DNA of 38,272 nucleotides from Nitrospirota bacterium. Lineage in GTDB: Bacteria; Nitrospirota; Thermodesulfovibrionia; Thermodesulfovibrionales; UBA1546. Below are positions 29,732 through 34,308 of this stretch, piece by piece. A model generated the notes under the pieces. The model was given only the letters and a program-made list of their open reading frames with translations, had not been told where the DNA came from and searched no databases. Location: the NCBI GenBank assembly GCA_009773185.1, contig WPIF01000025.1:1-38272 (forward strand), written 5' to 3'. Every line of letters starts with the position of its first letter. The stretch's first letter is position 1. The position numbers were made by a program, and so were the translations under genes.

Positions 29732-31255
29732 TTAAAACATTACCTGGATACCGGCATTGATAAACCATACAGTTTTCAACTGCAGGCCGTTCAGGTTTTG
29801 ATACATTGGTACACCGCCTTCAACTCCAACACTAAAAGGTCCCTTCTGGTAGCTTACGCCAAGCGCACCATCGAGGCGCCGGCCGCCGTAGTTATCAGGG
29901 TCAGCATCAGGCGTTGGAGCGCCCATACCTGTGACAGGATGGATGAGTTTATCTATCTCAGGGTCGTGTCCCCTGATCCGGCCTGTATCACTATAAGCCA
30001 GCCGCAGCCAGGAGGAAGCAGGGCCTAAGGCACGCTGGAACCAACTGTTCACCTTGAAGACATTGCCAAGGCGGTAACCGTTCTTGTTGTCGTCCATGCG
30101 ATACGTGTACATAGTTTGCGCTCCCCAGTTCCATTTAGCATCGTTGCTAAGTCCATTATAGGTAAGCGCAGGCTTCAGGTCATATGTGCCTGACCCGAGT
30201 TGCATATCATAGGGGGCGCGGTATTCCTTGTGCATCATCTCTACCTTCTGGTCAATGTCGCCGGTCGGAAGGCTGAGGCCAAGACTGCCGACGAGGTATT
30301 TATTAACCTTGTATATTCCTCTTAACTCCACGTCCCCGAAGCCCTGTGTGCGCATAGGGTCCTCGCGCGTAATCTTTTTCCCCGGGCCCATGTCCATCAG
30401 CATGGCCATCTCATTCTCCTGATGATTACCCATGACCATCCCGGTCAGTTGGTCGGTGAACCCGTACATGACCATCAGCATTTGCATGTCCATGCTCATA
30501 GTGGTGGGGATCATCATATAGTTATAAGGCTTGCCCCTTTTGTAGCTGACAGTATTCTGATCAACGTCCTTATTGCCTGCCCGCAGGCCGCTCATCTTCA
30601 TATGCATGTATTGGTAATTGACCATCCACATACCGGCCGGGTGGGTATGGTATATCTGGTCGCCAAAAGCAGGATTAAACACCATTTGAGCGCCGGGGCC
30701 CATGTCCATATGTTTCATATTGTGGCTCATGTGAGACTGCTGCTCGTGTTTCATCTCCGTGCTCTCGCCCACTTCCGCCCCTGCGGCTTCTGTCGCCTGG
30801 TCGAAGGGTGTTACCTTCCCGCCGTTTTCCTGAACAAATTTTTGCGCGTCCTCCTCCCTGGCAAATGCCCATTTTGCCAAAGATGTCATAACGCCCTCTT
30901 TCTTGCCCCCGACCACCCAGGTTGCAGTCTTTGCGTCTATCAGTGTTAGTGTCGTGTAATCGGCAACCATGAGCGACTTGATCTGCTTGTTTTTGTTTTG
31001 TTTCATCTCTGCTGCTGCACAGTGGAGACTACAGACTCCAACAGTGGCACCATCGGCATAGACAATGAGCATCCTGCTCCGGGCAAAAACGGCCCTGTCC
31101 ATCCCGCATTGCTTACAGGCCTTAGGGTTCTCCACCCCGTCCGCTGCACCGGCGGCGAAAGAATTCAGGGGAAGTATGATACTGAAAACTAAAAACAAAA
31201 GCGAAATAAAACCATTCCTCATCTTGATGCTGCGTCCTTTAATATTTGAAGCCAT
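29732..31255 (-). CDS. NosL domain fused to an outer-membrane beta-barrel, Met/His-rich
   Basis: A 507-residue exported protein. After a signal peptide (about 12-35), residues 40-150 form a NosL-like domain with paired cysteines CKQCGM (C47, C50) and CSLHC (C75, C79), a family that binds copper(I) for nitrous oxide reductase. A Glu/His-rich linker leads into a barrel-like half with many Met and His residues (MHMKMSG, TMSMDMQMLMVMYG, MAMLMDMGPGKK) and a C-terminal phenylalanine (VMF), the outer-membrane insertion signal. GAGGAGG is 7 nt before the ATG. It lies after tatC in the same direction. Copper or another soft-metal uptake or efflux at the outer membrane is the likely role. No nosZ is present. 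Confidence 0.8.
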   Translation of the reverse strand: MASNIKGRSIKMRNGFISLLFLVFSIILPLNSFAAGAADGVENPKACKQCGMDRAVFARSRMLIVYADGATVGVCSLHCAAAEMKQNKNKQIKSLMVADYTTLTLIDAKTATWVVGGKKEGVMTSLAKWAFAREEDAQKFVQENGGKVTPFDQATEAAGAEVGESTEMKHEQQSHMSHNMKHMDMGPGAQMVFNPAFGDQIYHTHPAGMWMVNYQYMHMKMSGLRAGNKDVDQNTVSYKRGKPYNYMMIPTTMSMDMQMLMVMYGFTDQLTGMVMGNHQENEMAMLMDMGPGKKITREDPMRTQGFGDVELRGIYKVNKYLVGSLGLSLPTGDIDQKVEMMHKEYRAPYDMQLGSGTYDLKPALTYNGLSNDAKWNWGAQTMYTYRMDDNKNGYRLGNVFKVNSWFQRALGPASSWLRLAYSDTGRIRGHDPEIDKLIHPVTGMGAPTPDADPDNYGGRRLDGALGVSYQKGPFSVGVEGGVPMYQNLNGLQLKTVWFINAGIQVMF

Positions 31256-31386: not shown

Positions 31387-32160
31387 TTAAAGCAACACGG
31401 CTTTCTTTCTCTGCATAATCCGCGAAAGAAGAATGCCAATTTCATACAAAATTATTATGGGTACCGCCATTAAAGTCTGATTAAAGGCATCCGGTGTCGG
31501 CGTAAGCACTGCCCCACCAACAAATGCAAAAAGAACCGCGTATTTTCTGTTTTTTGACAACGTCTTTGGGGTAACGAATCCGAGTTTTGTGAGAAAGATT
31601 ATGACCAGAGGAAGTTCAAAAATCGCGCCGAATGCCAAAATGAACTTAAGGCAAAAATCAATATAGCTACCCACAGAAAGCATGGGAACCATATTCTCTG
31701 TTTTATACCCAAGCAAAAAAGTCATTGCGAATGGAAGGATTACCAAAAAACAGAATACTGCACCTGCCGTAAACAGAGCAGTCGCAAAAAAAACAAAGGG
31801 CAGAAAATATTTCTTTTCTCTTGCCAGTAGTCCTGGTGAAATAAACTTCCACAACTGATAAAAAATTATCGGCAAAGAGAGAATAAATGATGCGATAAAA
31901 GAAACCTTAAGGTGCATCCAGAACGCCTCTCCAGGGGCAAGAAAAACAAGAGATACAGCGGTCTTTTCTTTTGCATGTATGTACGGCGTTGTAAAATCCA
32001 GTTTGAGTTCAGATTTGAGAGGAAGGGTCAAAAGTCCGAAAATCTTTTCCGAATAATTGAAAACAAAAGCAAATAGCAGAAAAACAGAGGCAAGAGATAC
32101 CAAAATCCTTTTGCGCAATTCAACAAGATGTTCTGTCAAAGGCAATTTTGACTCTTTCAA
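31387..32160 (-). CDS. tatC: twin-arginine translocase subunit TatC
   Basis: A 257-residue inner-membrane protein with six helices, the receptor for twin-arginine signal peptides. The N-terminus LTEHLVELRKRI, the periplasmic loop with PGEAFWMHLKVS and the P-rich FVGGAVLTPTPDAFNQ of the last helices are typical. The start is TTG, directly after the tatB stop (TAGTTG), with AAGGG 4 nt upstream. Cotranscribed with two TatA/B subunits; a probable substrate, the cytochrome with an SRRGLIKG signal, is encoded just upstream. Confidence 0.96.
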   Translation of the reverse strand: MKESKLPLTEHLVELRKRILVSLASVFLLFAFVFNYSEKIFGLLTLPLKSELKLDFTTPYIHAKEKTAVSLVFLAPGEAFWMHLKVSFIASFILSLPIIFYQLWKFISPGLLAREKKYFLPFVFFATALFTAGAVFCFLVILPFAMTFLLGYKTENMVPMLSVGSYIDFCLKFILAFGAIFELPLVIIFLTKLGFVTPKTLSKNRKYAVLFAFVGGAVLTPTPDAFNQTLMAVPIIILYEIGILLSRIMQRKKAVLL

Positions 32161-32427
32161 CTAACCCTTCCCTTCCTTTGCCCCTGGATCAGAATGATTT
32201 CCGTCTGCTTTTTTTTCTTCAGCGTTAGACTTAATAATGTCTTCAGACACCGCAAGTTGCTCTTTATATTCGTCTTCCATCCCGGCTTTTGCGGCATGAA
32301 CACCTTTTTTTATCTCATAAACCCACTTGCCGAGTGTCCGGCTAAATTCAGGGAGTTTTTGAGGGCCTATGACCAAAAGTGCAACAACAAAAATTATTAT
32401 TAATTCCTGTAATCCGATATCAAACAT
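32161..32427 (-). CDS. tatB: TatB-like translocase subunit
   Basis: An 88-residue protein with an N-terminal helix (about 3-20), the conserved GPQKLPEF hinge with its glycine and proline, an amphipathic helix and a charged tail. The glutamate at position 8 and the longer amphipathic region (TLGKWVYEIKKGVHAAKAG) favour TatB over TatA, but the two are hard to separate on sequence alone. GGGAG lies 4 nt before the ATG. Middle gene of the tatABC set. Confidence 0.85.
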   Translation of the reverse strand: MFDIGLQELIIIFVVALLVIGPQKLPEFSRTLGKWVYEIKKGVHAAKAGMEDEYKEQLAVSEDIIKSNAEEKKADGNHSDPGAKEGKG

Positions 32428-32453: not shown

Positions 32454-32672
32454 CTATACACATTTACCTTTTTCCTCTACCCCGGGATTTTTGTCTTCAA
32501 CAATGCTTTTCTTGGGAGTAACATCAATCTCATCAGGCTCGGTGGAAGACTTTTTGAAATTTTTGATAGCTTTTCCCATTCCGCTTGCCAGTTCCGGCAA
32601 CCTCTTGGCTCCAAACAGTACCATGACTATTACCAATATGACCATCAACTCAGGTAATCCAAGACCAAACAT
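32454..32672 (-). CDS. tatA: TatA translocase pore subunit
   Basis: A 72-residue protein with the classic TatA start [16 protein letters not shown], the [17 protein letters not shown] hinge and amphipathic helix (FGxxxLPxLxxxxGxxxxxF) and a short acidic tail ending in GKCV. TatA oligomerises to form the translocation path. AAGGAGG is about 7 nt from the ATG. It lies 58 bp downstream of the unusual tRNA and is probably in the same transcript. Confidence 0.93.
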
Positions 32673-32730: not shown

Positions 32731-32827
32731 TGGAGGGGAGTAGTGCGAATCGAACACACCACGAGCTTTTTCAGCCACCGTACCGCAGGTTTTGCAGACC
32801 TGGTGGGGCACCAACCCCATACTCCCC
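32731..32827 (-). tRNA. tRNA-Sec-like tRNA with cysteine anticodon GCA
   Basis: A 97-nt tRNA including encoded CCA. The acceptor stem GGGGAGTA pairs perfectly with TACTCCCC (8 bp). The D arm is TGGGG/CCCCA with loop TTGGTG. The anticodon arm CAGGT/ACCTG has a 7-nt loop CTGCAAA, so U33 precedes anticodon GCA (Cys). A 26-nt variable arm can fold as TACG/CGTG plus GCT/AGC. The T arm GTGTG/CGCAC (5 bp) has loop TTCGATT. The 8+5-bp acceptor branch and long variable arm are those of bacterial tRNA-Sec, but the discriminator is U (Cys identity), not G. Minor cysteine tRNAs that mimic tRNA-Sec have been reported before; charging by CysRS is inference. Confidence 0.85.
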
Positions 32828-32863: not shown

Positions 32864-32938
32864 TTATTTGCCCACATCCGCCATATTGTTCGGATAGCAT
32901 TCATTACAGTTGTGCTGGGCGGTAATCCCGTATGCTTT
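32864..32938 (-). pseudogene. 3' remnant of a second split-Soret-type cytochrome gene
   Basis: On the minus strand it reads AYGITAQHNCNECYPNNM and stops shortly after. YGITAQHNC is identical to the end of the intact cytochrome, whose last haem motif is CTECHG; here it is CNECY and has lost the haem histidine. It begins directly after the 32940-32958 palindrome, which probably broke the gene. Confidence 0.7.
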
Positions 32939-32939
32939 A

Positions 32940-32958
32940 GCGGGGGCTATGCCCCCGC
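32940..32958. repeat. REP-like palindrome GCGGGGGC
   Basis: A perfect 8-bp stem with TAT loop, GCGGGGGC-TAT-GCCCCCGC, between the intact cytochrome gene and the 3' remnant. Very stable, and may also end or stabilise the cytochrome mRNA. Confidence 0.7.
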
Positions 32959-32985: not shown

Positions 32986-33771
32986 TTATTTTGCTGGATT
33001 ACCCTTTGTGTTTATTTCCGGCACTTTAGCTCCGTGACATTCAGTACAGTTGTGCTGTGCTGTTATGCCGTAGACTAAGGCAGGCAGGTCATGTGTTGGT
33101 TTAAACTTGCCGTCAGCCAATTCATTTAACAGTTGTGCTGTGCGAACTGCTATATCTGCTGAAAGCCTGGCACACCTGTCTTTTCTCTCAGGGCTCCAAA
33201 ATCCGCGGTCTGCCTTCTTCATCCATTTGCCTACCGAAATATGGCAAAGAGGAGAGTCGCTTTTGCTTTTTATAATCTCTCCGGTTGTCTTTGGATTCTT
33301 TGGCTTATAAAGTGGCAGCTCTGTTTCGGAATAGTAATGTATAACTTCGTTGGTTATACGTTCACCGGTTTTATTGACGCCGGGTCCGGCTATCAGGTTT
33401 GCAGCAACAGCAGCCCCAAGCATTGTTCCACACATTGTCCCCCAGCCTACTACTCCACCGTGTCCCCACACAAAGGAATCTATCGGGAATGAGGTATACG
33501 GCTCCCCCACCTTTTTTTGAAGGGGGGTAAGTATCCCGGTAATAACTGCGTTCATACAAAATCCCTTATACCACTGGTTATAAGTTATATCTGCAACCTC
33601 TTCAAGGTCTAACTTTTTGTACGGCCATGGCAGCGGCGTCTCTTTAGCTTCCGCCTTTGACAAGAGACTCAGCCCTCCCATTGTCAGGGCAGCGACTCCT
33701 GCTGTACACACAGCGCCTTTAATAAGGCCCCGTCTTGACAACTTTTCATCTAACAACTTTCCATCTTCCAT
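32986..33771 (-). CDS. Tat-exported split-Soret-type cytochrome c
   Basis: A 261-residue periplasmic protein. The start at 33771 is fixed by GGAGG 8 nt upstream; the frame extends further upstream without a binding site. The N-terminus has a twin-arginine signal, SRRGLIKG, then a hydrophobic stretch to about residue 42. The central part has cysteine and glycine motifs (FCMNAVITG, GTMCGTMLGAAVAANL) of the C_GCAxxG_C_C-like family, and the single CxxCH (CTECHG) lies near the C-terminus. The pattern matches split-Soret cytochrome of sulfate reducers, a dimer with bis-histidine c haems. It is followed by the tRNA and tatABC, which suggests that this Tat operon serves it. Confidence 0.8.
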   Translation of the reverse strand: MEDGKLLDEKLSRRGLIKGAVCTAGVAALTMGGLSLLSKAEAKETPLPWPYKKLDLEEVADITYNQWYKGFCMNAVITGILTPLQKKVGEPYTSFPIDSFVWGHGGVVGWGTMCGTMLGAAVAANLIAGPGVNKTGERITNEVIHYYSETELPLYKPKNPKTTGEIIKSKSDSPLCHISVGKWMKKADRGFWSPERKDRCARLSADIAVRTAQLLNELADGKFKPTHDLPALVYGITAQHNCTECHGAKVPEINTKGNPAK

Positions 33772-34020: not shown

Positions 34021-34308
34021 TTAGACTCTTGGAGGACGTTCTTTCTGAAAGGAAATTAAGGATGAACTAAATGCAGGATTTGAAACCCTGTGAAAACCTG
34101 AAAATCCTAAAGGGATGAATTTGCTCTGACATTCATGTATGGAAACCATATCGGCATTTGAAGATAAGGACTGGCCCGCTTTATCGCATACATCAAGTGT
34201 GAGAAGCATTGCCTTGCCTTTATCAGATTCATGGGAAACCACCGGGTGTAACGGCGATATTACAGAAACAATAAGAGCGAATACTATTAATAAGCTTCCC
34301 GTCTTCAT
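34021..34308 (-). CDS. small secreted protein with two cysteines
   Basis: A 95-residue protein with a signal peptide (about 1-25, ending VVSH or just after). The mature part has two cysteines (LDVCDKAG and HECQSK) and ends in a basic FQKERPPRV tail. I do not recognise the family. No good ribosome binding site is present, so the start is uncertain. It stands alone between the cytochrome promoter region and the divergent acyltransferase gene. Confidence 0.5.
   Translation of the reverse strand: MKTGSLLIVFALIVSVISPLHPVVSHESDKGKAMLLTLDVCDKAGQSLSSNADMVSIHECQSKFIPLGFSGFHRVSNPAFSSSLISFQKERPPRV

Follow-up and report, generated by a model that had tools for sequence, protein, structure and literature searches.

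A cysteine tRNA with a tRNA-Sec body, very probably a variant of selC*, recurs beside selenium-metabolism genes in Thermodesulfovibrionales

A tRNA gene with cysteine identity elements on the body of a selenocysteine tRNA raises the question of which amino acid it carries, and to which codon. Such a gene lies on the minus strand at positions 32731–32827 of the window, by which we mean the whole 38,272-nucleotide stretch of DNA analysed here. ARAGORN calls a tRNA-Cys(GCA) of 97 nt on exactly this span. The Rfam tRNA-Sec model RF01852 matches it at 51.7 bits (E 9.7e-8; gathering score 47) and no other Rfam family passes its gathering score in the list for the window, where overlapping matches of the same clan are collapsed to the best one. 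A family model, R1, built from 17 such tRNAs, gives 91.7 bits (E 2.2e-17), the window sequence being among the relatives of that model. All eight pairs of the acceptor stem and all five of the T stem are formed. The T arm (32743–32759) has no bulge, the D arm has a 4-nt loop, UGGU, and the variable region (32760–32785), recognised from the alignment, its length and a covarying helix, is 26 nt long with a short stem. The anticodon GCA (32793–32795; position 33 in the ARAGORN call) is preceded by U33 in the loop CUGCAAA, and the gene ends with U73 and an encoded CCA (32731–32734). The core of the anticodon stem-loop, GGUCUGCAAAACC, is common to this tRNA and the normal tRNA-Cys of the genome. 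A canonical tRNA-Cys has a 7-bp acceptor stem and a short variable loop, where the window tRNA has 8 bp and 26 nt; a true selC has the anticodon UCA and G73 for SerRS, where it has GCA and U73. The features on which the original prediction was built, the 8/5 stems, the 26-nt variable arm, GCA, U73 and CCA, are all found, and the tRNA-Sec covariance fold passes. The gene is a real extra tRNA, with a tRNA-Sec body and cysteine identity marks.

That the window tRNA is a second tRNA-Cys of the CysRS type is supported, and its host genome (2.79 Mb in 44 contigs, rated 100% complete; order Thermodesulfovibrionales, Nitrospirota) also carries ordinary genes of both kinds. There is one ordinary tRNA-Sec (UCA), separate from the window tRNA, one ordinary tRNA-Cys located elsewhere among the other tRNA genes examined, and, above cut-off, one SelA, one SelB and one CysRS. 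Neither the SelB nor the CysRS gene is near the window tRNA, and the genome has no selB* or cysS* copy. LysR_Sec is present, away from the tRNA locus, and a search for YedF found none. A crude script that read about 1.6 of the 2.8 Mb found no clear selenoprotein UGA there.

Related genomes gave second matches to the Rfam model, and these turned out to be tRNAs like that of the window. We label this family of tRNA-Sec-bodied tRNA-Cys(GCA), window gene included, tRNA*, and use G and L numbers for genomes and loci. Counted at R1 scores of at least 69 bits, where ordinary tRNA-Sec reaches 63 at most, tRNA* occurs in 62 of the 149 genomes of the order; in a phylum-wide sample it occurs in 63 of 396, all within the class of the host genome. 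A DNA pattern scan of a species collection returned 37 stretches, with Nitrospirota titles except one ‘Bacterium BMS3Bbin08’, a result that says nothing on absence elsewhere since the pattern was derived from the family itself. Across the 17 sequences, 98% of cells are paired, and the compensatory changes that had been anticipated among homologues are present: both sides have changed at 19 of the 30 pairs, and 0 of 500 shuffles scored as high. The CUGCAAA loop, U73 and CCA are found at all 61 loci examined. The acceptor stem is fully paired over 8 bp in 57 of these and the T stem over 5 bp in 60, and the variable region ranges from 22 to 61 nt. In a genome of the same genus the tRNA differs at one of 97 positions and the adjoining spacers diverge more.

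Variable regions are very long (48–61 nt) at L104, L123, L125, L126, L127, L130 and L131, with tRNAs of up to 132 nt; ARAGORN missed both members of this kind that were re-scanned (L199 and L214). A further member, outside the 61, carries the anticodon GUA, for Tyr codons, with U73 and the same body (L269, 4001–4096, plus strand), and YedF follows 34 nt downstream of it. GUA is not a simple read error here, since the composition and pairing of the acceptor stem differ too.

In a tree of the 61 tRNA*, 31 tRNA-Sec and the other tRNAs of the host genome, tRNA* and tRNA-Sec form a joint clade (support 0.91), within which each has its own clade (0.71 for the 61 tRNA*, 0.65 for tRNA-Sec), both far from tRNA-Cys. 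The mean distance of the window tRNA is 1.13 to tRNA-Sec and 2.64 to tRNA-Cys. The consensus T arm of tRNA*, GUGGGUUCGAUUCCCAC, is letter-identical to that of tRNA-Sec. Although tRNA trees are weak evidence in general, we read tRNA* as a selC duplicate that exchanged serine for cysteine identity, based on the sister clades and the identical T arm.

In the window, the tRNA lies in a series of genes on the minus strand, transcribed in the order small exported protein, split-Soret-like protein, tRNA, tatA, tatB, tatC. The split-Soret-like redox protein (32986–33771) has a twin-arginine motif, the Pfam domain C_GCAxxG_C_C and a C-terminal CxxCH; it scores 137.6 bits against NF047622, where the cut-off is 400, and its assignment also draws on an alignment and on its recurrence beside tRNA*. 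The small exported protein (34021–34308), with no Pfam or NCBIfam match, belongs to a protein cluster that accompanies the split-Soret gene at other tRNA* loci. On the other side, tatA (32454–32672; TIGR01411) is 58 nt downstream of the tRNA, followed by a tatB-like gene (32161–32427; TIGR01410 at 55.7 bits, cut-off 56.5) and tatC (31387–32160; TIGR00945). The stretch from the split-Soret gene to tatC showed no terminator-like site. The stretch at 32864–32940 (minus strand), between the split-Soret gene and the tRNA, codes YGITAQHNCNECYPNNMADVGK, copying the C-terminus of the split-Soret protein, YGITAQHNCTECHG; judging by this resemblance it is probably what remains of a second copy in tandem, and it is nearly unchanged in the genome of the same genus. 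Downstream of tatC, positions 29732–31255 (minus strand) encode a 507-residue protein with a NosL domain in its N-terminal part and no assigned domain in its C-terminal part.

It had been suggested that the tRNA is coexpressed with exported cysteine proteins of a Tat operon that it may help to translate. The split-Soret gene does recur as a neighbour, but the tat arrangement is confined to the window and one genome of the same genus (L113) among the 61 loci. In G074, tatA lies with a split-Soret gene about 2 kb from one tRNA copy (L116). We rejected the Tat operon as a general functional partner, tatB and tatC both occurring within 4 kb at only 2 of the 61 loci.

Comparison of gene order around the homologues, which the original prediction had called for, points instead to selenium-metabolism genes as the partners across the order. 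Over the 61 loci, tRNA* neighbours LysR_Sec at 20, YedF at 22 (within 4 kb), a double-cubane reductase at 11, its activase at 12 and a split-Soret gene at 15. Nineteen of the 20 LysR proteins match NF040786 at 1e-74 or better, and the twentieth is cut short. Within 1.5 kb, at least one of LysR_Sec, YedF, the reductase and the activase is found at 34 of the 61 tRNA* loci versus 0 of 31 tRNA-Sec loci (Fisher p 9e-9, a value that is too small because related genomes are not independent). The same test around the other tRNAs of the host genome gave 1 of 35. Beyond the 61, eight further loci were compared, most of which belong to other families of the class; four have YedF (three of these also LysR_Sec) and two a split-Soret gene, hence 6 of 8. 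G074 has two tRNA copies, each with its own YedF within 4 kb. Genome-wide, YedF is present in 26 of 32 tRNA* carriers versus 12 of 28 non-carriers. None of the tested neighbours is found at 19 of the 61 loci, and the genes downstream of tRNA* vary between lineages. YedF, LysR_Se and YedE were put forward as selenium genes by Lin et al., who name a dehydratase subunit, a transglutaminase-like protein and an activase among the associates of such genes (PMC5322559). The gene order points to selenium biology at large and does not single out UGA decoding.

At two loci of G096 and in G126, the tRNA is followed directly downstream, at a distance of no more than about 50 nt, by a second selB, full-length or, in one case, cut short. 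The encoded SelB* has ERGMT for ERGIT and is otherwise well conserved: 23 of 200 residues invariant in SelB are altered in at least one SelB*, and only the ERGIT to ERGMT change and one P to S change are common to all three. Two genomes that have tRNA* and appear to lack tRNA-Sec (G034 and G054) were set aside as cases of true absence; SelA and SelB are present, genomes of the same genera have tRNA-Sec, and an assembly gap is likely. Rfam found no tRNA-Sec in G021, G038, G047 and G106, of which G021, G047 and G106 have SelB; G106 is assembled as one contig and may thus have a divergent tRNA-Sec. CysRS-like proteins of about 405–460 residues whose match is confined to the initial part of the model occur in G013, G028, G045, G074, G089 and G140, and some have an in-frame TGA. 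They show no tie to the presence of tRNA* and may be CysRS*-like or MshC-like.

Based on analogy with published systems, we take the window tRNA for a variant of selC* that very probably works as selC* does. On balance we also think it probable that it is charged by CysRS and delivered by SelB, as a backup that lets cysteine replace selenocysteine, a trick that is already known, if rarely seen. A selC duplicate would have changed its identity from serine to cysteine, and CysRS would charge it through U73 and GCA. With its 8-bp acceptor stem it should be a poor substrate of EF-Tu and a substrate of SelB, as published work on tRNAs of the same kind suggests. SelB would then carry Cys-tRNA to UGA codons marked by a SECIS, and selenoproteins would be completed with cysteine under selenium shortage, by analogy with Desulfotomaculum nigrificans. 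The recurrent placement beside LysR_Sec, YedF and related genes suggests that tRNA* may be expressed according to selenium status. Counting against this explanation are the lack of a clear selenoprotein UGA in the 1.6 Mb read, the lack of YedF in the host genome and the 19 loci with none of the tested neighbours. The anticodon GCA also pairs only incompletely with UGA.

A bolder and, to us, doubtful proposal is a selenium-status switch in Thermodesulfovibrionia, in which LysR_Sec would control the tRNA and have it made together with YedF, the double-cubane reductase and the split-Soret protein. Cysteine might then be put in place of selenocysteine throughout the selenoproteome or, more radically, selenocysteine might be brought to chosen Cys codons of these partners.

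We consider it unlikely that CysRS charges the tRNA and EF-Tu carries it to UGC and UGU as an ordinary minor isoacceptor, perhaps to help translate the Cys-rich redox proteins of its operons. Such proteins are frequent among its neighbours, and the anticodon and stem-loop core shared with the normal tRNA-Cys would suit this role. Three observations oppose it: an 8-bp acceptor stem, of a length described as lowering EF-Tu binding about 100-fold in tRNA-Sec (PMC7609411), has been kept; many genomes of the order do without tRNA*; and the recurring neighbours are genes of selenium metabolism.

Quite unlikely, in our estimate, is a regulatory RNA of selenium status that is not mainly an elongator, whether it competes with Sec-tRNA for SelB or SelA or acts in the leader of a downstream operon. 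Its recurrent position between LysR_Sec and YedF, in several cases no more than about 200 nt before yedF, and the retention of the tRNA-Sec D loop and 13-bp branch are consistent with such a role. The invariant anticodon loop, U73 and CCA are instead what a translating tRNA needs, and the variation of the downstream genes between lineages also counts against this reading.

The original prediction had raised another option: that recognition by SelA/SelB leads to selenocysteine at some Cys codons. SelA might convert the tRNA-bound amino acid, or CysRS load Sec, and SelB might deliver it to chosen UGC or UGU codons. The body of the tRNA is of the type that SelA and SelB recognise, and a GCA tRNA-Sec of Aeromonas salmonicida is described as reading UGC as Sec (PMC11415595). 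We nevertheless find it very improbable here. U73 in place of G73 argues against charging by SerRS, and published tRNAs with GCA and Cys identity are reported to do the reverse, placing Cys at selenocysteine UGA (PMC11415595). In the neighbouring YedF, split-Soret and double-cubane genes, no consistent SECIS-like hairpin follows the conserved Cys codons, and no Sec/Cys exchange was seen in the form of an in-frame TGA at a conserved Cys. One double-cubane column with a mean z of -2.6 was rejected as a SECIS-like signal, the hairpins differing between genes and sitting in GC-rich Gly/Ala codons. In the double-cubane reductase of L118, Asp (GAT) stands where L120 and others have the conserved Cys in GVCIGLC. 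Finally, that the gene is a decaying, functionless selC copy is scarcely credible: the patchy spread over the order would fit, but covariation is strong, fold and identity elements are intact throughout, and the tRNA is 96/97 identical in the genome of the same genus while its spacers differ more.

The gene order ties a sparsely described class of recoding tRNA to named selenium genes, repeatedly and in many genomes of a class whose anaerobes are mostly uncultured, and makes the use of cysteine for selenocysteine under selenium shortage testable through regulation. The natural variants, with a clean 8/5 branch, variable regions of up to 61 nt and one GUA anticodon, should be useful for work on recognition by SelB and CysRS and for selenoprotein engineering.

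Among the closest known systems is the selC* tRNA-Cys of Mukai et al. (2017), described in a review as having a tRNA-Sec body, U73 and GCA, or UCA in some, as coming from Nitrospirae, Thermodesulfobacteria, Firmicutes and Proteobacteria, and as having a second selB downstream in some lineages (PMC7609411). The window tRNA shares with it the long acceptor stem, the long variable arm and U73 with GCA. It differs in the branch: selC* has a modified 8/4 structure with a bulged A51a, whereas the T stem here is 5 bp without a bulge, and all 5 bp are paired at 60 of the 61 loci. An 8/5 Cys tRNA from deltaproteobacteria reportedly figures in the abstract of Mukai et al. as well, and would make the structure less novel. 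The same review describes A51a as dispensable for charging by CysRS* (PMC7609411). Where selC* has GCA or UCA, tRNA* has GCA at every one of the 61 loci, plus the one GUA outside them. Some selC* sub-lineages have a linked selB* or, in Desulfobacterales, cysS*; neither is linked in the host genome, and selB* is adjacent in two related genomes. Passages on selC* in the reviews make no mention of an association with LysR_Sec or YedF. In E. coli, Cys identity depends chiefly on U73 and GCA (PMC9976931).

The tRNA-Cys(GCA) of Desulfotomaculum nigrificans, which is reported to put Cys at selenocysteine UGA after delivery by SelB, not EF-Tu (PMC11415595), resembles the window tRNA, as far as its description goes, in anticodon, tRNA-Sec-like structure and Cys identity; its function was tested, that of the window tRNA is inferred. 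Precedent for the mechanism is also found in PMC7609411 and PMC9437257. The true tRNA-Sec of Aeromonas salmonicida also joins a tRNA-Sec body to GCA, but inserts Sec at UGC, whereas the window tRNA carries Cys identity at position 73. The allo-tRNAs (8/4 and 9/3) likewise have a long acceptor stem and were found in tRNA-Sec searches; they are described as having a 12-bp branch and Ser identity, in contrast to 13 bp and Cys identity here (PMC7609411). With tRNA-Sec itself (selC, RF01852) the window tRNA shares the 8/5 branch, the D loop UGGU, a nearly identical T arm and the long variable arm, and tRNA* departs from it in having GCA for UCA, U73 for G73, and a D arm that is shorter and usually preceded by a one-nucleotide linker.
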